A stretch of 64,000 nucleotides of DNA. It comes from Rhodococcus sp. OK302 (GTDB taxonomy: Bacteria > Actinomycetota > Actinomycetes > Mycobacteriales > Mycobacteriaceae). The stretch covers positions 3,942,501-4,006,500 of the forward strand of contig NZ_NPJZ01000001.1 in assembly GCF_002245895.1 (NCBI RefSeq). Reading direction: 5' to 3'. This document shows positions 50,741-64,000 of this stretch, piece by piece. The translations under genes were made by a program, and so were the position numbers. Each line of letters starts with the position of its first letter. The stretch's first letter is position 1. The notes beneath the pieces were generated by a model, which was not told where the DNA came from, made no database searches, and saw nothing but the letters and a program-made list of their open reading frames with translations.

Positions 50741-52198
50741 TCAGGCCTCGATTTCGCTACGGTCACCGCTCCACAACGTGTGGAACTTGCCCGGCTTGTC
50801 GATGCGCTCGTAGGTGTGAGCACCGAAGAAGTCACGCTGACCCTGAGTCAACGCAGCCGGCAGACGCTTCGCACGCAGACCGTCGTAGTACGAGAGCGAC
50901 GACGCGAACGCGGGAACCGGGATACCGAGCATCGTCGCGGTGGCGACAACACGGCGCCAGCTGTCGATACCGGCCTCGATGGCTTCACGGAAGTACGGAG
51001 CCAGAATCAAGCTCGGCAGTGCCGGATCCGTCTCGTAGGCATCCTTGATGCGGTTGAGGAACTGCGCACGAATGATGCAGCCGCCGCGCCAGATGGTTGC
51101 CAGGTCAGCAGGCTTGACGTCCCAGTTGTACTCGGCACTGCCGGCAGCGATCTGGTCGAATCCCTGCGCGTACGCCACGATCTTCGACGCGTACAGCGCC
51201 GCCTGGATATCTGCTGCGAACTGCTCGGCGTCAGATGGCTTGTCGCCGAGTGCACCGGACGCTAGATCCAGAGCCTGAGCTGCAGCGCGCTGCGTGCGGC
51301 TACCCGAGAGTGCGCGAGCGAACACGGCCTCGGCGATACCGGTGACCGGCACACCCAGGTCCAGAGCGGACTTGACCGTCCAACGGCCCGTGCCCTTCTG
51401 CTCGGCAGCATCGACGATGACGTCGACCAACGGCTTGCCGGTCTCGGCGTCGACCTGACGCAGGACCTCGGCCGTGATCTCGATCAGGTACGACTCGAGG
51501 GTGCCCTTGTTCCACTCGGTGAAGACGTCGGCCACCTGGCCGGCGTCGTAACCCAGAGCGTCGCGGAAAAGGTTGTACGCCTCACCGATGAGCTGCATGT
51601 CGGCGTACTCGATGCCGTTGTGCACCATCTTGACGAAGTGGCCGCTGCCGTCGGGGCCGATGTGCGTGCAGCACGGGGTGCCGTCGACGTGAGCCGAGAT
51701 GGACTCGAGAAGGGGGCCGAGAGCCTCGTAGGACTCCTTCGGGCCGCCCGGCATGATCGAGGGACCGTTGAGTGCGCCTTCTTCGCCACCGGAGATTCCA
51801 GCGCCGACGAAGTGCAGTCCGCGGGCACGGATCGCAGCCTCGCGACGGATCGTGTCGGTGTACAGCGAGTTGCCGCCGTCGATGATGATGTCGCCGGGCT
51901 CCATCGCGTTCGCGAGCTCTTCGATGACAGCGTCCGTCGGATCGCCGGCCTTGACCATGATCAGCACGCGACGCGGCTTCTGCAGCGCGGCGACAAACTC
52001 TTCGATGGTTTCGGTACGCACGAAATCGCCCTCGGAACCATGATCGGCGATCAGTGCATCGGTCTTCGCGATGCTTCGGTTGTGCAGCGCAACGGTGTGT
52101 CCGTGGCGGGCGAAATTGCGGGCAATATTCGAACCCATGACGGCCAGGCCGGTGACGCCGATCTGAGCTCGGGGTGATTCGGTGCTATTGGTTGACAT
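50741..52198 (-). CDS. gnd: 6-phosphogluconate dehydrogenase, decarboxylating
   Basis: 485 residues from ATG at 52198 (MSTNSTES). The dinucleotide loop is GLAVMGSNIARNFA, the substrate and catalytic segment is GISGGEEGALNGPSIMPGG, and the active Lys lies in GHFVKMVHNGIEY. The C-terminal dimerisation tail ends in FHTLWSGDRSEIEA. It carries out the NADP-dependent oxidative step of the pentose phosphate pathway to ribulose 5-phosphate. Full family length. It stands where gnd1 (Rv1844c) is in M. tuberculosis, next to the GuaB1 region. Confidence 0.95.
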   Translation of the reverse strand: MSTNSTESPRAQIGVTGLAVMGSNIARNFARHGHTVALHNRSIAKTDALIADHGSEGDFVRTETIEEFVAALQKPRRVLIMVKAGDPTDAVIEELANAMEPGDIIIDGGNSLYTDTIRREAAIRARGLHFVGAGISGGEEGALNGPSIMPGGPKESYEALGPLLESISAHVDGTPCCTHIGPDGSGHFVKMVHNGIEYADMQLIGEAYNLFRDALGYDAGQVADVFTEWNKGTLESYLIEITAEVLRQVDAETGKPLVDVIVDAAEQKGTGRWTVKSALDLGVPVTGIAEAVFARALSGSRTQRAAAQALDLASGALGDKPSDAEQFAADIQAALYASKIVAYAQGFDQIAAGSAEYNWDVKPADLATIWRGGCIIRAQFLNRIKDAYETDPALPSLILAPYFREAIEAGIDSWRRVVATATMLGIPVPAFASSLSYYDGLRAKRLPAALTQGQRDFFGAHTYERIDKPGKFHTLWSGDRSEIEA

Positions 52199-52305
52199 GC
52201 TTACAGCTTTCCCTCTCGGTCCGCGGCTGTGAAATCCTGCGCCTCGCGCAGCGAAAAATTCTGTGGTCACGACGCGCGTGAACAACAGACCGTGCATACA
52301 AAGCA

Positions 52306-52342
52306 CGGATGCAGATCACTTTATTGCAGTGACCTGCATCCG
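52306..52342 (-). terminator. Hairpin terminator after the helicase gene
   Basis: A 14-bp stem with one mismatch (CGGATGCAGATCAC at 52306-52319 against 52329-52342) and a 9-base loop, 72 bases beyond the helicase stop on the minus strand. It is followed by TGCTTTGT on that strand. Confidence 0.65.
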
Positions 52343-52413: not shown

Positions 52414-54528
52414 TTAGCGCTGGTCGCGCTTCGGGCCGTCGAAGCCGTCGTAGCTACGACGATCGGTGCGGCTGCGGAAGCCACCACCGCTGGTCGATGC
52501 AGCGCGGTCTCCGCTGTCGCGGTTGCCCTGGTATCCGCCGGACGAGTTGCTGCCCTGGTATCCGCCCGAGGAGCGGTTGCCCTGGTAGCCACCTGTCGAC
52601 GGACGGCTGTCGCGGTTGCCCTGGTATCCGCCGCGGCTTTCGCCACCTTCGCGGTTGCCCTGGTATCCACCGGATGAACGGTTGCCCTGGTAGCCGCCAC
52701 CTTCGCGGTTGCCCTGGTATCCACCCGTGGAGGGGCGGCTGTCGCGGTTGCCCTGGTATCCACCGGACGAACGGTCACCCTGGTAGCCGCCGCGGCTTTC
52801 GCCACCTTCGCGGTTGCCCTGGTACCCGCCCGAAGAGCGGTTGCCCTGGTAGCCGCCACCTTCGCGGTTGCCCTGGTAGCCGCCGCGGCTTTCGCCGCCG
52901 TCACGGTTGCCCTGGTAACCACCGGTGGAGGGACGGCTGCCCTGGTAGCCGCCGCGGCTTTCGCCGCCGTCACGGTTGCCCTGGTAACCACCGGTGGAGG
53001 GACGGCTGCCCTGGTAGCCGCCGCGGCTTTCGCCACCTTCGCGGTTGCCCTGGTATCCACCGGATGAACGGTTGCCCTGGTATCCGCCGCCTTCGCGGTT
53101 GCCCTGGTATCCACCGGAAGAGCGGTTGCCCTGGTATCCGCCGCCTTCGCGATTGCCCTGGTAGCCACGGGATCCGCCGCCGCCGAAGGAGCGCTCGCCA
53201 CGAGAAGAGCTCTCGCGCAACGGTTCTCCGGTCGGCTTCTTGGCGCCGGTGATGCGAGCGAGTTCAGCGGAGCCCGGGGTGACGGGAACAGCTGCGGCGT
53301 CGACGCCGGCCATGGAAGTCAGACGCTTGAAGCCACGCTTCTGGTTCGGCAGAACGATCGCAACGACGGTGCCCTTCTCGCCGGCACGAGCCGTACGTCC
53401 TGCGCGGTGAAGGTAGTCCTTGTGATCTGCCGGGGGATCGACGTGCACAACGAGGTCGATACCGTCGACGTGGATGCCGCGGGCTGCGACGTCGGTGGCG
53501 ACGAGGACCGGCGTGCGGCCGGTCTTGAAACGCTCGAGGACGCGCGTGCGCTGGTTCTGTGCCTTGCCACCGTGAAGCGACTCAGCGGCGATACCGACTG
53601 CGCGGAGGCGATCGGTGATTCCTTCGCAACCGAGCTTGGTGCGAGCGAACATGATGGTGCGTCCGTCACGGGCGCCGATCTCGGAGAGGACGGAGTCCTT
53701 CTGGCCGCGATCGACGAGGAGAACGTAGTGCTCCATGGTGTCGACGCTGGCGCGGCCGTCTTCGGTGGAGTGCGTGACGTGGTTGGACAGGAACTGGCGA
53801 ACCAGCGACTGGACCTCGCGGTCGAGAGTGGCGGAGAACAGCAGACGCTGTCCGTCGGCCGGGGTCTCGCCGAGGATCGAACGAACCTCGGGCAGGAAGC
53901 CCATGTCGGCCATCTGGTCAGCTTCGTCGAGTGCGGTGATTTCCACCGAGTCGAGGATGCAGGTGCCCTGACGCAGGTGGTCGCCGAGACGACCCGGTGT
54001 TGCCACCAGGATGTCGACGCCGCGGCGCAGCTGATCGACCTGCTTGGAGAAGGGTGTGCCACCGACGGCGGGGCGGACGGTGAGTCCGAGAGCGCCGGCG
54101 TACGCGGTCAACGATTCGACGACCTGGAATGCGAGTTCACGGGTGGGGACCAGAACCAGGGCGCGGGGGCGCTTGGCTGCCGGGCGATCCTCGTGACGCG
54201 AGAGGCGGGTCAGCATCGGCAGGCCGAAGGCCAGCGTCTTACCCGAACCGGTCTGGGCGCGGCCCAGAACATTGATTCCGTTGAGCGCATCGGGAATGGC
54301 GAGCGCCTGGATGGGCGACGGGCTGGTGATGGAGTTGCGCGCAAGTGCGGCAACGAGCTGCTCGGGCAAGCCGATTTCAGCAAATGTAACGGTGGGCTCG
54401 GTGGAAACTGCCTCGGTGGCAACTTCTTCTTCACGAGCGGGTGTAACGACTACATCTTCTACTGCACTAGCAATGACTGCGTCATCGGTAATGTTCTCGG
54501 AAGACGACATTTGGACAGCGTTGGTCAC
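52414..54528 (-). CDS. DEAD-box RNA helicase with long GYQG-repeat tail
   Basis: 704 residues from GTG at 54528, with GGAGAGG seven bases before it. The core (about 45-415) has [58 protein letters not shown] and [13 protein letters not shown]. From about residue 470 the chain is low complexity: 21 copies of GYQG, mostly GYQGNR, spaced by Gly/Ser/Glu/Arg linkers, ending in a basic stretch. Such RGG-like, aromatic-spaced tails bind RNA and favour condensates. Expected role: cold-shock or ribosome-associated RNA remodelling. The long ORFs on both strands over the tail are repeat shadows. Confidence 0.93.
52520..53175 (-). repeat. Tandem coding repeat, 21 x GYQG units
   Basis: A block of imperfect tandem repeats encoding GYQG(N/S/D)R plus a variable linker of 3-9 residues ([29 protein letters not shown]). 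The repeat is at nucleotide level too, with a recurrent GTTGCCCTGGTA core on the plus strand, so slippage or recombination could change copy number among strains. Confidence 0.9.
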
Positions 54529-54789
54529 GCGGAAACCTCTCCGGACTACGGGCACGTCGCGGAGCGGAAGAAGCCATGCTTGAACACACGACACAGTTCG
54601 CAAAGGGACGAGCCAGGGCACATGTCACCTGGCAATCCGAACGCATACTGCGGGGAATTGGGCTGTGTGCCATTAAATGTTGATGAACCACGATGGTGGC
54701 CGTGATCCACTGTACGCCACATGCCCTCTGTAAGTCAGGTAGCCCGGCTTGTGACCTGTACTACTACACCCAGTTTCGCTGGTCAAGGA

Positions 54790-55743
54790 TCAGTAGGCAT
54801 TGAAAAGCAAGCGAAGCTCTGTGAGCCACGGCACGGCAACTGCAACTGTAGGCACCACCAGAATGGCAACCGCCCCGAGATACGCGCAGACCGCAATGCG
54901 GGGATCGCCGTCATCTGCCGAGAGTCGTTGCACACGAATCAATGTGGAGGGGCCACCTGCAGCCATTGCGCCCCGCGGTGCAGTCGAGCCGGCACACGCG
55001 ACGAGCGCCCGGGCGAGCGGCGTTGGACCGGTGACCCGCACAGCCGAATCGTCGGCGAGCAGTTCCACGAGAAGCTGAACAGATCCCAGCGCGGACTTGC
55101 TACGGACGAAACGGGGGAAAGCATGGTTTACGGCAGTAAAGGCTTCGAGGACCAAATCATGACGGGCACGAAGATGTGAACGCTCGTGCGTCAGGATCGC
55201 CTTGACCTCGGCGTGGTCGAGATTCTGCAATGTTCCCTGACTCAACACCACACGCTGGCGGATTCCGGGCAGGCAGTAGGCGATCGGCTCTTCGACATCG
55301 AGAACCCGCAGGTCCGGGGTTCGTTCCACCGAAGCCGGCATTGCGCAGTCGTCGAGTAGATCCACCAGGATCCGATGACGCGAGCGTCGACGACGCGTGC
55401 GCACCCCTACCTGGATGATCGAGAAGATCAGCTTCGCGCCGATGAGCAGGGTCAGCGCAAAGATCACGACGTACAGAATCCACAACGGCAAACCGAGAGC
55501 GTCGATTTCAGCTGTCGGCGCCGTAGTCGGACGCCCGTCGGCACCGGGTACCAGTAGCTGACTGGCAATTGCCAAACCTGAACTGAATGCTGACAGTACG
55601 GCAGCGAGGGCGACAGCCTGCCAGAGGACAAGTGCCGCGCGGGGTGCGCGGTACGGCCACGTCGAGCGGCTCAGGAGTGCTGGGATCGGTCCTGCGAGCA
55701 GCAATGCAAGGAGGCCGAAAACCAGTGCAGTGGTGGCGTTCAT
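54790..55743 (-). CDS. blaR: BlaR1/MecR1-like M56 family membrane metallopeptidase
   Basis: 317 residues. Transmembrane helices at about 4-22, 38-60, 88-112 and near the C-terminus. The zinc-protease signature is HERSH (186-190) in LTHERSHLRARHD, followed by the downstream Glu-containing LLVELLADDSAV. There is no extracellular penicillin-binding sensor domain, so the trigger is not necessarily a beta-lactam. The gene follows blaI by 25 bases, the arrangement of Rv1845c/Rv1846c, where the protease is expected to inactivate the repressor. Confidence 0.9.
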   Translation of the reverse strand: MNATTALVFGLLALLLAGPIPALLSRSTWPYRAPRAALVLWQAVALAAVLSAFSSGLAIASQLLVPGADGRPTTAPTAEIDALGLPLWILYVVIFALTLLIGAKLIFSIIQVGVRTRRRRSRHRILVDLLDDCAMPASVERTPDLRVLDVEEPIAYCLPGIRQRVVLSQGTLQNLDHAEVKAILTHERSHLRARHDLVLEAFTAVNHAFPRFVRSKSALGSVQLLVELLADDSAVRVTGPTPLARALVACAGSTAPRGAMAAGGPSTLIRVQRLSADDGDPRIAVCAYLGAVAILVVPTVAVAVPWLTELRLLFNAY

Positions 55744-55768: not shown

Positions 55769-56182
55769 TCAGTGAGGCCTAGAAGTTCCGGGCTGCGCAG
55801 CATTTTTCGTGGATTCACGAACCTCGAGGGCCGCGAGTGCTTCCCGAAGGGCATCGGCTTCGTCGGCGTTGACCTGGCCCACGAAGTGCACCAATGCTGC
55901 CGCCCGGCCACCGGACTCCGGAGCCTGGGCGAGTGCGTCGACCATCAAACTGGCAACCAACTCTTCACGCTTGTTCACCGGAAGGTACCGATGGGCGCGG
56001 TCGTCACGTTGCTGAATTACCAGATGCTTCTTCGCTAGACGTTGCAAAACCGTCATCACTGTTGTGTACGCCAACTCGCGATGCGTCGCGAGGGCTTCAT
56101 GTACTTGCCGCACAGTTTGCGGTTCCGTGGTGGACCACAAATGATCCATCACCGCGCGTTCGAGTTCACCTAGACCTGCCAT
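55769..56182 (-). CDS. blaI: BlaI/MecI family transcriptional repressor
   Basis: 137 residues. An N-terminal winged helix: GELERAVMDHLWSTTEPQTV, then VREVHEALATHRELAYTTVMTVL-type recognition region and LAKKHLVIQQRDDRAHRYLP. The C-terminal dimerisation helices end in RESTKNAAQ. It represses the blaI-blaR operon at the dyad 56217-56233 and probably other sites. The ortholog in M. tuberculosis (Rv1846c) has a wider regulon that includes respiration and ATP synthase genes. Confidence 0.94.
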   Translation of the reverse strand: MAGLGELERAVMDHLWSTTEPQTVRQVHEALATHRELAYTTVMTVLQRLAKKHLVIQQRDDRAHRYLPVNKREELVASLMVDALAQAPESGGRAAALVHFVGQVNADEADALREALAALEVRESTKNAAQPGTSRPH

Positions 56183-58932: not shown

Positions 58933-58983
58933 GAGCGAACGTACCTTTCGGTCGATCCAAGGCGCCGAAAGGTACGTTCGCTC
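58933..58983. terminator. Perfect 19-bp inverted repeat, bidirectional terminator
   Basis: GAGCGAACGTACCTTTCGG at 58933-58951 pairs perfectly with 58965-58983 across a 13-base loop. It sits between convergent genes and overlaps the last bases of the siderophore ATPase gene. No T-tract accompanies it. Confidence 0.6.
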
Positions 58984-59854
58984 AAACTGGGGTGGGGGAA
59001 TTCGCGGGCCTTGCAACCGGACCGCCGACCGCGCCGAACACGTGCCGGGTTCCGATCGGCACGATCAGTGGCCGATCCGATACGGGATCGTCGATCACCA
59101 CTGCCTCGAGGCCGAACACCTCGAGGAGAAGTTCGGCGGAAATGATGTCCTTGGGAATCCCGGCGGCGACAACGGCGCCGTCGCGCATCACGATCAGGTG
59201 GTCGCTGTAGCGCACCGCGAGGTTGAGGTCGTGCAAAATCATGACGACGGTTCGGCCCATTTCCTCGTGCAACTGATCCACGAGGTCGAGAACCTCCATG
59301 GAATGCGCAAGGTCGAGGTACGTCGTCGGTTCGTCCAGTAGGAGGATGTCGGTGCCTTGAGCCAAGGCCATCGAGATCCAGGCCCGCTGACGCTGACCAC
59401 CGGAGAGTTGGTCGACCGGACGATCCGCCAGATCGGAAACTCCGGTCAACGCGAGAGCCTGAGCTACCTCGCCCTCGTCGTCGGAAGACCATTGGCGGAT
59501 CCACGACTGGTGCGGATGGCGTCCACGCGCAACCAAGTCCGCGACAGTCAGGCCCTCCGGGGCGACGGGTGTCTGGGGAAGCATGCCGAGGATCCGCGCA
59601 ACCTCCTTGGTCTTCATGGAACTGATTGCCTTGCCGTCCAAAACAACTGACCCACTCTTGGGCTTGAGTAGACGCCCCAGGGCTCGCAGGAGCGTGGACT
59701 TGCCGCAACCGTTGGGGCCGATGACCGTCGTGATCACACCGGTCGGGATCTCGAGATCGAGCCCGTCGACGATGATGCGGTCGCCGTAACCGAGAGTGAG
59801 ATTTTGTGCGACGAGCCGCGACGGTGCGTCGACGGATGTGGACGTGGTGGTCAT
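58982..59854 (-). CDS. Iron-siderophore ABC transporter ATP-binding protein, FepC/FecE-like
   Basis: 290 residues. Walker A is GPNGCGKST (46-54), the Q-loop lies in GMLPQTPVAPEGLTVADLVARGRHPH, the signature is LSGGQRQRAWI and Walker B is ILLLDEPTTYLD. The GRxPH segment in the helical domain is typical of iron-siderophore and cobalamin importers. It overlaps the permease gene by four bases, third gene of a minus-strand uptake operon. Iron import is expected, with derepression under low iron through IdeR. Confidence 0.94.
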   Translation of the reverse strand: MTTTSTSVDAPSRLVAQNLTLGYGDRIIVDGLDLEIPTGVITTVIGPNGCGKSTLLRALGRLLKPKSGSVVLDGKAISSMKTKEVARILGMLPQTPVAPEGLTVADLVARGRHPHQSWIRQWSSDDEGEVAQALALTGVSDLADRPVDQLSGGQRQRAWISMALAQGTDILLLDEPTTYLDLAHSMEVLDLVDQLHEEMGRTVVMILHDLNLAVRYSDHLIVMRDGAVVAAGIPKDIISAELLLEVFGLEAVVIDDPVSDRPLIVPIGTRHVFGAVGGPVARPANSPTPV

Positions 59855-60945
59855 CCCGTGACCTTTCGATTGTTGCGGACCAAGAGGTAGATCAGGAACG
59901 GTCCACCCAGTGCTGAGGTAACGATGCCGACGGGCAGTTCCACCGGAAGAATCGTTCGAGCGATCACGTCACTGCCGACCACCAACACGGCACCGGCGAG
60001 TGCGGACGCGACAATCGGAGGACCGGCCGATCGCACCAGACGCATCGCGACCTGCGGCGCGGCCAACGCCACGAAACCCACGGGGCCGGCAGCTGCCGTC
60101 GCGATCGCGGCCAGTGCCACCGCCGAGAGTAGAAGCGTGGCCTGCGACGACTGAAGTCGCACGCCCAGCGACGTCGCATTGTCCTCACCCAATCGCAAGG
60201 CGCCCATGGTGAACGATGCGATGACCGCGTACCCGCCGACGACTACGAGAGCAATCGCGACCGGCCACATCTGGTTCCAACTCGCGCCGTTGAGAGACCC
60301 ATTCAGCCACACCTGCGCGCGCGATGCGTCGTTGATATCCGCGGAGATCAGGAGCCAGCGGGTGGCCGCGACCAACATGGCATTGATACCGATGCCGATG
60401 AGGATCAGCCGGAATCCTTCGACCCCTTTGCGCCACGCCAGTGTGTAGATAACCACCGCGGTGACGAGGCCGCCGGCAAGAGCTGCCAGCGGAATACCGA
60501 TCGTCGAAAACAGGCCCACAAACGATCCGCCGCCGCCCAGGACGATCAGCGCGACTGCAGCTGCACTGGAACCTGCGGTGATACCGAGAATATCGGGACT
60601 TGCCAGGGAATTCCGGGCAATCGTCTGGGTGATGGCTCCGGCGATAGCGAGTGCCATTCCGATGAAAAGTGCAGTGAGCGCACGGGGCATACGCATGTCG
60701 AGAACGATCAGGTTTTGCGTCTTCGAGCCGTTTCCGAGGAGCACTGATATGACGTCCGGGATCGAAATCGGGTAGTCACCGCGTCCGAGGTTGATACAGA
60801 GCAGGAGGAACAGCGCGCCCGTGAGCGCAAGGCACACCGCGACCGGCAGTGGTCGATACACCAGTGAAAACGAACCGAGACGAAGAGCTTTGCGAGAGGG
60901 AACGGTCCGGGGCAGTGCCCGAGGTTCGCTGTGTGTGAGCGTCAC
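59851..60945 (-). CDS. Siderophore ABC transporter permease, FecCD family
   Basis: 364 residues, about ten transmembrane helices, with DMRMPRALTALFIGMALAIAGAITQTIARNSLASPDILGITAGSSAA, the hallmark start of FecCD permeases, and GFVALAAPQVAMRLV near the end. It pairs with the other permease to form the membrane channel. It overlaps its neighbours on both sides by four bases, so the three genes are coupled. There is no periplasmic-type binding protein gene in the visible operon. Confidence 0.94.
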   Translation of the reverse strand: MTLTHSEPRALPRTVPSRKALRLGSFSLVYRPLPVAVCLALTGALFLLLCINLGRGDYPISIPDVISVLLGNGSKTQNLIVLDMRMPRALTALFIGMALAIAGAITQTIARNSLASPDILGITAGSSAAAVALIVLGGGGSFVGLFSTIGIPLAALAGGLVTAVVIYTLAWRKGVEGFRLILIGIGINAMLVAATRWLLISADINDASRAQVWLNGSLNGASWNQMWPVAIALVVVGGYAVIASFTMGALRLGEDNATSLGVRLQSSQATLLLSAVALAAIATAAAGPVGFVALAAPQVAMRLVRSAGPPIVASALAGAVLVVGSDVIARTILPVELPVGIVTSALGGPFLIYLLVRNNRKVTG

Positions 60946-62408
60946 AGACTGGCCAGCTTTCTGCGGCGTACGAGCGCAATGAAGAATGGTGCACCGAAGA
61001 TGGCCAGAATGATTCCGACCTGCAGTTCACCCGGACGGACGACAACCCGTCCGACGACGTCGGCGGTGATCAACATGATCGCGCCGAGCAAACCCGCGTA
61101 GGGCACAAGCCAGCGGTAATCGGGACCGGTGATGGCGCGTGCGACGTGGGGTACGACCAGGCCGATGAAGGCAATGGGACCGCACGCTGCGGTGGCAGCA
61201 CCCGTGAGCAGGGTGATCGCGACGATGCCGAGTGTCCGACTGAATGCGATGTTGGTTCCGAGTGCCCGAGCAACGTCGTCGCCGAGGCTCAGAACGTTCA
61301 GGCCCGGCGTGCTCGCGAGTGCGATCACCAAGCCGAGTATCAGGAAGGGAAGGACTTGCCACAGCACGTCGAATCCTCGACCGGATACCGAACCGACCAC
61401 CCAGAAGCGGTAGGCGTCCAAGCTGGTCTGATCGAGAATGATGACGGCATCGGTCATCGCCTGCAAGAAGAACGCGACCGCCGCGCCGGCGAGTGCCAGG
61501 CTCAGCGGACTGGAACCGCCGCTACCGATCGAGGACAACCCGAATACGACGACGCTCGCGGCAAATGAACCGGCAAACGCGAACCACATGTACTGACTCG
61601 GAGCCGTGAAGCCGAAGAAGTAGATAGCCAGGACGACGAAGAACGCGGCGCCGGCGTTCAATCCGAGTAGGCCGGCATCGGCGAGGGGGTTGCGCGTATG
61701 ACCTTGAATGAGCGCACCGGCAATGCCGAGTGCAATGCCGACAGCCAATCCCAGGGCTGTTCGGGGGGCACGCAATGTGCGGACGATGATGTCGGTCTGT
61801 GAGCCTTCCGAACTGAAGATCGCGTGAAAGATCTCGGCGAACGTCAACGGTCGCGCCCCGACCGCGATACTGGCGAGCATCACGAGGAGTAACAGGATCG
61901 CCAGTACTGCGAGCCCGGTAAGTCTGCGTCGCCGCATGGCGCCGGCGCTGGTGTCCCGCTCGAGTTCTTCGAATCCTTCGTCGCGCGCAGTGCTTTCGCG
62001 AACAACTTCGATTCCGGCTCGATTGAACGGGCGTAGGAGCGCGCGTCGAGGTCCGATCGGCTGCTTCGTCGACGCGTCACGGGTGGTCAGACCGACCCAG
62101 CCTTTGCCTGACGTCCGGCCGGTGTTGCCTTCGCGGAATCCGAGATTCCAGATCGCCAGCCCGAGCGCGATGGCGATGGCTGTGCCACCGAATACTGCTC
62201 GGTCGGCTTCACCGCCGCCGTTCGCGTCGCGCAGTGACGAGACGACGTACCAGCCGATCATCAGGGGTAACGCGAAGATTCCGGCGTCGAATGCGGCGGC
62301 GAGTACACGCAGGCGAACAGGGGCGGGTCCGCGCGGGACGATACGTCGTCCGTAGGTCTCACTGGGCCCGGGAGGTCGTTCGCTCCGGGGCGTGTCGGTC
62401 ATGGTCAC
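60942..62408 (-). CDS. Siderophore permease with fused N-terminal RDD domain
   Basis: 488 residues. The first about 125 residues form an RDD-type domain (PVRLRVLAAAFDAGIFALP, then AIALGLAIWNLGFREGNTG and RTSGKGWVGL), which is normally a stand-alone small membrane protein. A linker and a FecCD permease follow from about 160 (IIVRTLRAPRTALGLAVG; LAGALIQGHTRNPLADAGLLGLNAG). No stop or frameshift separates them. First gene of the uptake operon, 45 bases downstream of an IdeR box. The RDD part may add two or three helices or a regulatory contact. Confidence 0.9.
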   Translation of the reverse strand: MTMTDTPRSERPPGPSETYGRRIVPRGPAPVRLRVLAAAFDAGIFALPLMIGWYVVSSLRDANGGGEADRAVFGGTAIAIALGLAIWNLGFREGNTGRTSGKGWVGLTTRDASTKQPIGPRRALLRPFNRAGIEVVRESTARDEGFEELERDTSAGAMRRRRLTGLAVLAILLLLVMLASIAVGARPLTFAEIFHAIFSSEGSQTDIIVRTLRAPRTALGLAVGIALGIAGALIQGHTRNPLADAGLLGLNAGAAFFVVLAIYFFGFTAPSQYMWFAFAGSFAASVVVFGLSSIGSGGSSPLSLALAGAAVAFFLQAMTDAVIILDQTSLDAYRFWVVGSVSGRGFDVLWQVLPFLILGLVIALASTPGLNVLSLGDDVARALGTNIAFSRTLGIVAITLLTGAATAACGPIAFIGLVVPHVARAITGPDYRWLVPYAGLLGAIMLITADVVGRVVVRPGELQVGIILAIFGAPFFIALVRRRKLASL

Positions 62409-62545: not shown

Positions 62546-62564
62546 TATGGTGAGGCTAACCTAT
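62546..62564. promoter_or_regulatory. IdeR/DtxR-type iron box of the gene at 62602
   Basis: TATGGTGAGGCTAACCTAT matches the IdeR consensus at 15 of 19 positions. It lies 38 bases before the start of the rightward gene, probably in its promoter. Confidence 0.75.
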
Positions 62565-62601
62565 GTTAAACGGGCAACATAACTTCGGCGAATTGGAGCG
62601 C

Positions 62602-63402
62602 ATGGTGACCATGACCATGACCACCCAGCATGTGCAGTCACGAGATCTCGACCTCCGAACTGACGCATTCGCTTGCACATGCGCCCGGTTGCGGGCCCTC
62701 AACCCTGACTACCCGCGGGTTTACGCGGTGGCCGCGATGGCAGGCGAAGGAAAACGGCGGTGGTGGAAACTGAGCACCGGCTTGGAGTCGGACCGCGTGG
62801 ACAACTTGCTGGCGCGATCGTTGCAGGACCTCGGTAATCGCGAAGCTGCCGCAGTGCAAGTGGCAACGTCGTTGATCCATGCCGTCGTCGGCAGGGTTGC
62901 GGCGTCGATCGTGGCAGACGGATCCGCCTGGGATCCGGGCCTGGAGAATCTCTGGATCCACATGGACAGCGACAGTGGCATCGACTGGGCCGGTGTCGCT
63001 GACGAAACACTGCGCGTTGCCCCCGGAAGTTCCCAGTACGGCCGCGATGGGGTTGTTGACATGCCCTGTGAGGCGGCGTTGTCCATCTGGGTAGCGCATC
63101 GATGCCTGACATCGCTTCGCGCGGTGCACAACGCGGTGTCGCGGCGTGCGCCCATCGACTCCGTCCGATTCTGGGGTCTGGTCGGGGAATCGATCTTGGG
63201 TGCGACTGCGTATGTACCAATCCTTGCGGGTGAAGGCGAAACTGTGGCGTGGCGACGTGGACAGGGATTGCTCGACGCATTTGTCGACGCCGGGGTCCCC
63301 GTGCGGACGCGTCGAAAGGGCGGTTTGCGTCCTCGTTGGCGCACGCTCGACGAAGCCCCTTGCGTCCTCGTTGGCGCACGCTCGACGAAGCCCCTTGCGT
63401 AA
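62602..63402 (+). CDS. Iron-regulated protein of unknown function, possibly FhuF-like
   Basis: 266 residues. ATG at 62602 or GTG at 62605, the latter better spaced from GGAG. The ATG at 62563 is unlikely because it lies inside the iron box. The sequence is soluble, with CTCARLRAL near the start and LGLVGESILGATAYVP in the C-terminal half. The layout loosely recalls FhuF-type siderophore reductases, but the usual C-terminal CC-x10-C iron-sulfur motif is missing, so I do not assign the function. A 35-bp tandem duplication at the end has changed its C-terminus. Confidence 0.6.
   Translation: MVTMTMTTQHVQSRDLDLRTDAFACTCARLRALNPDYPRVYAVAAMAGEGKRRWWKLSTGLESDRVDNLLARSLQDLGNREAAAVQVATSLIHAVVGRVAASIVADGSAWDPGLENLWIHMDSDSGIDWAGVADETLRVAPGSSQYGRDGVVDMPCEAALSIWVAHRCLTSLRAVHNAVSRRAPIDSVRFWGLVGESILGATAYVPILAGEGETVAWRRGQGLLDAFVDAGVPVRTRRKGGLRPRWRTLDEAPCVLVGARSTKPLA
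63326..63395 (+). repeat. 35-bp perfect tandem duplication at gene 3' end
   Basis: Two identical 35-base copies (63326-63360 and 63361-63395) followed by a 5-base start of a third. Because 35 is not a multiple of three, the second copy is read in another frame and replaces the original end DEAPCVIR with a longer tail. The copy also ends at the -35 region of the downstream iron-regulated RNA. Confidence 0.9.
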
Positions 63403-63421
63403 TTAGGTAAACCTTGCCTAT
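63403..63421. promoter_or_regulatory. IdeR/DtxR-type iron box in promoter of ncRNA
   Basis: TTAGGTAAACCTTGCCTAT matches the IdeR consensus at 13 positions and contains the dyad AGGTAA-N3-TTGCCT. It fills the spacer between TTGCGT at 63395-63400 (-35) and TATGCT at 63419-63424 (-10), the classical place for repression. Confidence 0.65.
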
Positions 63422-63430
63422 GCTTATGTG

Positions 63431-63568
63431 GCACGGAGCGGGAGTTACCAGCCCGCACAGTGCAATCAACTGCCGGACCGCGCCGGAGTCCTGAGGGCTG
63501 CAGAGACTCCCGGTCCTTCCCACGGCGGGTTTCGCATCACACGATGCGGAGCCCGCCGGTTCTTGTTT
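63431..63568 (+). ncRNA. Iron-responsive small RNA, MrsI-like candidate
   Basis: A compact transcription unit with no convincing ORF between the gene at 62602 and the thioesterase gene. An IdeR-box promoter at 63395-63424 would initiate near 63431. Three hairpins follow: GCGGG/CCCGC (63438-63456); a two-part stem GGACCG and GGAGTC with their complements (63475-63516); and a terminator stem (63523-63558) followed by GTTCTTGTTT. In M. tuberculosis the iron-sparing sRNA MrsI (ncRv11846) is encoded between Rv1846c and Rv1847. Here the downstream gene is the Rv1847-like thioesterase. Homology is inferred from position, iron box and architecture only. Confidence 0.6.
63523..63568 (+). terminator. 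Intrinsic terminator of the iron-regulated RNA
   Basis: CGGCGGG (63523-63529) pairs with CCCGCCG (63552-63558), with an inner CGCATC/GATGCG stem and loop ACAC, followed by a T-rich GTTCTTGTTT. Confidence 0.8.
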
Positions 63569-63660
63569 CCAGACCTGAGTCCAGGCTCGAGTAGCTACTC
63601 GTGTAGGCAAGTAGTCAGCGGCAGCCACTCCGGCGCCACGGAACCACAGATGGAGAAGGC

Positions 63661-64000
63661 ATGGCCGACACAGCTGACATTGCCGAATTGAAGAACTTGT
63701 TGGGAACAGGCTTCGACGCCACCATCGGCTTGGAATACACCGAAGTGACACCGGACCGTGTCCGCGCACAGTGGACCGTCAAGCCCACGTTGCACCAGCC
63801 CGCCGGGATTCAGCACGGCGGCGTGTATTGCTCCGTTGTGGAGTCACTGGCCAGCATCGGCGGCACAGTGTGGCTGGGGGAGCGCGGGCATGTTGTCGGC
63901 GTTAACAACAACACCGATTTCCTGCGGGCAACCCGCGAAGGCACGCTGACCGCTGAGGCCAACCCGATTCACCGAGGGCGCACATCGCAGCTCTGGGAAG
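63661..64000 (+). CDS. Hotdog-fold thioesterase, PaaI family (cut by window end)
   Basis: Partial, at least 113 residues. ATG at 63661 with GGAGAAGGC upstream. The hotdog signature is clear: HQPAGIQHGGVYCSVVESLASIGG followed by NNNTDFLRATREG, as in PaaI and Rv1847-like thioesterases, with the catalytic Asn-His-Gly-Gly region in IQHGGV. It hydrolyses acyl- or aryl-CoA thioesters. It is the Rv1847 counterpart by gene order. The reading frame runs off the right edge. Confidence 0.88.
   Translation, partial: MADTADIAELKNLLGTGFDATIGLEYTEVTPDRVRAQWTVKPTLHQPAGIQHGGVYCSVVESLASIGGTVWLGERGHVVGVNNNTDFLRATREGTLTAEANPIHRGRTSQLWE

Follow-up and report, generated by a model that had tools for sequence, protein, structure and literature searches.

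A stretch of 64,000 nt from Rhodococcus sp. OK302 (contig NZ_NPJZ01000001.1, positions 3,942,501 to 4,006,500), hereafter the window, contains near its right end a predicted small RNA (sRNA) of ~138 nt on the plus strand, 63431-63568. Very probably this RNA is orthologous to MrsI, an sRNA of mycobacteria, i.e. an RNA controlled by IdeR, with a loop that would repress the messenger RNAs (mRNAs) of dispensable iron proteins and so spare iron. According to published reviews, MrsI (ncRv11846) lies between blaI and rv1847, is ~100 nt long, has an IdeR site and a predicted terminator and acts on bfrA (PMC8628891, PMC11188477, PMC12101431). It is described there with a 6-nt seed and a 7-nt apical loop (PMC11188477, PMC12101431), as a mycobacterial sRNA that turns off dispensable iron-using genes in iron scarcity.

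Homology with the RNA of Mycobacterium was evaluated by two covariance models. Model R1 was built from 19 of 30 loci of the window's genus and its sister genera, with no Mycobacterium among them. The thioesterase of a locus from genus g50 (L071) was then used as a query in a named collection. The best 80 loci are nearly all Mycobacterium or Mycolicibacter, with a top match of 99%, and R1 matches 66 of these 80, on the plus strand and immediately before the gene. The iron box is present in nearly all of the R1-matched thioesterase loci listed. Model R2 was built from 24 of the 66 loci, all titled Mycobacterium, and deliberately omits L149 and L190, which are nearer to the Rhodococcus form. The initial annotation had suggested homology with MrsI and proposed that a covariance model from mycobacterial sequences be scored on this region. 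Up to E 10, R2 has a single match in the 64 kb, at 63474-63567 with 62.2 bits (E 8.9e-11). R2 also matches 31 out of 31 loci tested (L001-L030 and a Gordonia record), and R1 finds the window's own locus at L001 1595-1688. Together with an IdeR-type box, a terminator-like hairpin, the loop and an adjoining PaaI-type thioesterase gene, the R2 match fits the published descriptions of MrsI, and the suggested homology is thus upheld at the level of the models.

In genus g50, which we take to be Mycobacterium, R1 matches 219 of 248 genomes; with the M. angelicum element as a DNA query, 328 of 396 genomes match. In L071 itself a blaI-like frame is adjacent to the RNA, divergent from both the RNA and the thioesterase. 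R1 has no match in 14 of the best 80 thioesterase loci, seven of them from Mycolicibacter. Three Mycolicibacter loci (L174, L180, L189) lack an R1 match but show, ahead of the thioesterase, a CTGAG stretch and CAAGCCTACCCT, which suggests that the RNA was lost, has decayed or has drifted strongly. In three other loci with no R1 match (L134, L142, L168), nothing RNA-like is visible before the thioesterase on inspection. Rfam 15 gives 0 matches above the gathering threshold in the window; a scan of 63200-63700 returned two sub-threshold matches (E 0.28 and 0.87), both to unrelated families.

The conserved core hairpin, 63474-63516 on the plus strand, consists of helices 1 and 2, lies within the matches of both models and carries a 7-nt apical loop, AGGGCUG (63494-63500), the presumed seed. 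Covariation was studied in an alignment of 51 sequences, 35 from a set of 49 family loci and 16 others. Left out were three near-duplicates and another 11 elements that score lower, are truncated or diverge, so the figures describe the better-scoring part. In the two-hairpin structure, 93.5% of the cells are paired, and 23 of the 31 pairs changed on both sides. The two-sided changes amount to 180 cells; shuffles give 48.9 and slid controls 18-31. Applied to this alignment, RNAalifold gives 25 pairs, 19 of them with two-sided changes. All seven letters of the loop are unchanged in 51/51 sequences. In the short stem below the loop the middle pair switches jointly: four sequences have C-G in place of U-A, and one has A-U, a form shared by three Mycobacterium-titled loci (L126, L131, L133). 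A covarying stem with an invariant loop is what one expects of a displayed seed.

Downstream of the core, the terminator-like hairpin (63523-63558, plus strand, 16 pairs) is followed by the T-rich tail GTTCTTGTTT at 63559-63568, from which the end of the transcript is predicted. Hairpin and tail are the single match of a terminator scan in 62800-64000; shuffles yield a mean of 0.9 matches, i.e. the scan by itself proves nothing. The helix shows two-sided changes in 16/16 pairs. The T-tails are imperfect in many family members. The predicted folding energy of the 146-nt segment 63425-63570 is -76.9 kcal/mol, compared with -55 on average in shuffles (z -5.2), and 0 of 200 shuffles equal it. The initial annotation had described three stable hairpins, the last with a T-rich tail. 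The stable fold, the tail and the conservation of the core and end hairpins agree with this, but the first hairpin, at 63431-63463, is a clade-specific 5' leader, neither the sequence nor the length of which is kept beyond the close clade.

Upstream of the RNA, a -35-like hexamer TTGCGT (63395-63400) and a -10-like hexamer TATGCT (63419-63424), from which the start of the transcript is predicted, are separated by an 18-nt spacer on the plus strand. This spacer is filled by an IdeR/DtxR-type iron box, TTAGGTAAACCTTGCCTAT, at 63403-63421, which overlaps into the -10-like hexamer. The box was scored against the DtxR/IdeR consensus TTAGGTWAGSCTWACCTAA. It has 3 mismatches and is the sole site with 3 or fewer mismatches in the window; shuffled windows contain such a match in 0 of 100 cases. 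A strict sigma-70 scan called no promoter. We regard 63395-63424 as a candidate promoter because of its position and the matching arrangement in relatives, where TTGC or TTGA stands in the same place as TTGCGT in most of the 49 loci. A box-like site is found upstream of 47 of the 49 related elements, compared with 1.6% of 1919 random 90-nt stretches; the pattern was derived from the same loci, so the 47/49 is partly circular. The best-scoring register of the box is shifted in 5 of the 47 (L066, L069, L072, L090, L095). The earlier description of a promoter with its spacer filled by an IdeR-type dyad is consistent with all of this, given the uniqueness of the box and the recurring layout. Between the divergent siderophore importer genes and the open reading frame (ORF) starting at 62563, another IdeR-like box, a weaker one with 11 of 14, is found at 62546-62564. 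The end of this ORF contains a 35-bp unit in 2.2 copies with no mismatch (63325-63400), which duplicates the -35-like TTGCGT.

By DNA search, 27 of the 28 same-genus genomes carry the element, and the single miss is a genome that is 75% complete. Over all relatives, 34 of 61 match, two of which (G051, G059) are short, with E 0.007, and were taken as chance. In distant relatives the core and the end hairpin persist, and so does an iron box, though its distance varies. R1 matches 231 of 301 family genomes at E <=0.01, in 23 of 31 genera. One genus (g35) is counted by one weak match only (L085, E 0.0035), with no iron box, and 22 genera is perhaps the truer number. In genus g46, L084 has the loop and the thioesterase motif and no iron box. 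In an order-level sample, R1 matches 20 of 150 genomes, including two weak matches outside the family (E 0.0018 and 0.0073) that were taken as chance. Virus contigs gave 4 exact loop matches, with a best R1 score of 18.8 bits (E 0.02), and were rejected. The RNA looks like a trait of this family that is absent from some genera. The extension from mycobacteria to Rhodococcus proposed in the initial annotation therefore holds, but the RNA is not confined to Rhodococcus and occurs in many genera of the family.

Directly downstream, on the plus strand, lies a PaaI-type 4HBT thioesterase gene (63661-64000, running off the window), whose start codon is ~92 nt past the T-rich tail. As first annotated, it belongs to this type: PF03061 matches with 8.5e-13, and the ORF is complete with 142 aa in L001. 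By its HGG motif, a thioesterase follows the RNA in the same direction in 37 of the 49 loci, and an NGG variant of the motif adds 5 more. In 2 of the remaining loci the thioesterase motif is on the other strand, and in 5 (L063, L070, L074, L085, L102) it is not established. The Nocardia-like genus g44 includes two genomes whose RNA faces away from the thioesterase, at distances of ~0.1 and ~3 kb, so the RNA can stand alone.

The window order is gnd-like, helicase-like, blaR, blaI, lysyltransferase-like, FecCD importer, a 279-aa ORF, RNA and thioesterase. The gnd-like (50741-52306) and helicase-like (52414-54621) genes carry names given from their sequences. The blaR-type M56 peptidase gene (54790-55743, PF05569 1.2e-11) and the blaI-type repressor gene (55769-56182, PF03965 1.3e-26) are both on the minus strand. 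Since blaI ends at 56182, the ~7.5 kb of inserted genes reported earlier between blaI and the thioesterase side is correct. Between blaI and the RNA lie genes of a FecCD-type iron-siderophore ATP-binding cassette (ABC) importer on the minus strand (58982-62408; PF01032 twice, PF00005), and one of its permeases (60942-62408) has a fused N-terminal RDD domain. The 279-aa ORF (62563-63402) in the gap between importer and RNA has no Pfam family above the cut-off. ORFs resembling it precede the RNA in other loci, e.g. L064 and L068. Among plasmids, one record carries the RNA, together with the entire chromosomal-type block. Plasmid p174 of Gordonia polyisoprenivorans VH2 (L332, NC_016907.1 79888-87979) has the whole guaB1-to-urease block in the annotated order guaB1, gndA, M56, blaI, PaaI thioesterase, aldolase/citrate lyase and urease gamma, and an unannotated R1 match of 82.9 bits lies between its blaI and thioesterase.

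According to the mechanism that we propose, iron-loaded IdeR would bind the box in the promoter spacer and block RNA polymerase. When iron drops, the promoter would open and give a free-standing RNA of ~100-140 nt, ended at the hairpin 63523-63558. The core hairpin would then display the loop AGGGCUG, which may pair with CAGCCC-type sites near the mRNA starts of dispensable iron proteins, and this pairing would lower iron-protein expression and spare iron. Transcription, binding by IdeR, the response to iron and the Rhodococcus mRNA targets are our inference.

The putative RNA resembles MrsI in its IdeR-type box at the promoter, its core and terminator-like hairpin, its 7-nt apical loop, its place directly upstream of a PaaI-type thioesterase and its model-level homology to the Mycobacterium RNA found there. 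Unlike in the MrsI locus, blaI is not a neighbour here: it is 7.5 kb off, with the siderophore-importer block between. We treat blaI adjacency as a feature of the neighbourhood that does not define the RNA. The window RNA also differs by its extra ~40-nt clade-specific leader. By analogy with other iron-starvation sRNAs, the proposed role is like that of RyhB in enteric bacteria and PrrF in Pseudomonas, which lower iron-protein mRNAs and are described as needing Hfq. It is likewise comparable with two iron-sparing sRNAs from Gram-positive bacteria, FsrA (Bacillus) and IsrR (Staphylococcus); these are described as using C-rich motifs, whereas the presumed seed of the window RNA is a G-rich hairpin loop. 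Membership in any of these four was rejected, with no match to RyhB, PrrF, FsrA or IsrR in the Rfam scans.

CAGCCC is the exact complement of GGGCUG in the loop. Among 24 genomes of g50 that have a bfr gene, the 90 nt ahead of bfr contain CAGCCC in 15 of 20 carriers of the RNA and in 0 of 4 genomes without an R1 match (Fisher P 0.012, uncorrected for kinship). Counted by gene copy, it precedes 15 of the 23 bfr genes of the carriers. The background is 4.7% of random 90-nt stretches of the same bfr loci, and in one genome the match extends to 11 nt. The CAGCCC sites at mycobacterial bfr fit the published MrsI-bfrA pairing and point to the loop as the probable seed.

Several results weigh against an MrsI orthologue in the window. 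M. tuberculosis ncRv11846 (2096766-2096867) is outside the best 80 named loci, and among the genome matches listed none falls at that coordinate, so its identity with the window RNA would follow from position and the published description, via other Mycobacterium species. Two pairs of helix 2, in the middle of the inner stem, do not form in 21 and 31 of the 51 sequences. Two of the four bfr genomes counted as non-carriers are incomplete (80% and 84%), which makes the absence of the RNA less sure there. In Rhodococcus, no CAGCCC was found within 90 nt upstream of bfr in 14 loci, one of which has GCAGCC. At E 1e-20, TIGR00754 has no match in 9 of 23 same-genus genomes, the window genome included; the other 14 match. 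The missing match need not mean that there is no ferritin, because the accessible part of a transcriptome study of R. erythropolis with a phage mentions bacterioferritin genes in that strain (PMC10986025). Searches for targets in the window genome gave 33 CAGCCCT-GGA-ATG arrangements against 38 in the reversed control, i.e. no excess, and the 11-mer GCAGCCCTCAG with up to 1 mismatch is rarer than in the control (110 against 310). Two leads that came up as targets are at background level and are not claimed: a radical-SAM gene (L299), which we take to resemble mycofactocin mftC, and a gene presumably like DUF849 (L294).

The leader adds a further point of the same kind. In the predicted minimum-energy fold for the window genome, CAGCCC in the leader pairs with the apical loop. 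Six of the seven loop letters have an unpaired probability of 0.01-0.02 with the leader, compared with 0.92-1.0 when the leader is removed. The nearest relative (L002) has a minimum-energy fold of the same kind; in the folds of the other eight clade members (L003-L010) the loop stays open. The pairing may be due to chance, or it may form an off-state that depends on processing.

Four other explanations were compared with an MrsI-type sRNA. Rather than a trans-acting sRNA, the region could be a cis-acting leader, an attenuator or riboswitch in which the terminator gates IdeR-controlled read-through into the thioesterase. The in-line position of the thioesterase in most loci and the short distance to its start codon here would suit such a leader. 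However, in the two g44 genomes the RNA faces away, once at ~3 kb, and it is the loop that is invariant, its matching sites lying ahead of a different gene, bfr. Moreover, published MrsI is a separate transcript acting on bfrA (PMC11188477). We therefore find a purely cis-acting element unlikely. A dual role, which overlaps with the MrsI orthologue, is a possibility that we hold at well under even chances. In this case the sRNA would be accompanied by incomplete termination, giving iron-controlled transcription of the thioesterase. This would explain the conserved neighbourhood, kept over many genera, and it agrees with the imperfect T-tails of many members, but not with the genes pointing apart in two genomes.

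The two remaining explanations dispense with a functional RNA. A frame of 87 aa, 63428-63691, runs with no stop across the RNA, and it or another small frame could be the conserved unit, i.e. a short peptide gene. Single-base indels in the core (CTCCC-GG / CTCCCAGG) and the variable length of the leader disrupt any frame common to the loci, and the changes preserve pairs. A peptide gene is therefore highly improbable, and the initial annotation, which saw no persuasive ORF here, agrees. Finally, chance hairpins could stand beside a chance iron box, since GC-rich DNA folds easily and the terminator scan alone is at background. The presence of the element in nearly all same-genus genomes, the covariation, the single box in the window, the R1 matches over the family and the match of the mycobacterial R2 to the window argue against it, and we give coincidence practically no weight.

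Returning to the MrsI-type sRNA, no CAGCCC was found at bfr in Rhodococcus, so its targets there must differ at least partly from those in Mycobacterium. Tentatively, we suggest a family-wide ancestral iron regulator in which the loop is kept letter-perfect and the regulon was rebuilt. Since the loop is unchanged yet the Rhodococcus bfr site was not found, a second core regulon would have to hold the loop fixed. The leader of this lineage may add an off-switch that needs cutting or remodelling.

In the titles and abstract openings of the open-licence literature searched, the RNA is unreported outside Mycobacterium. MrsI and Rhodococcus are linked by no title or abstract opening there, and one co-mention is in a reference list only. 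Among the titles listed by a search of the same literature with the letters of the loop, none concerns this RNA. The accessible part of the R. erythropolis transcriptome study lists F6 and the ydaO leader as up-regulated non-coding RNAs and does not name the window RNA (PMC10986025). Already known is MrsI in mycobacteria; what appears to be new is its family-wide range beyond them, together with the failure to find the bfr site in Rhodococcus. A loop that has stayed the same where a target site could not be located poses a concrete question on the evolution of sRNA regulons, and Rhodococcus strains offer themselves for study of the RNA. The covariance model can be used to annotate many genomes, and the RNA, being present in most genomes of the family, would be an iron switch of long standing there.
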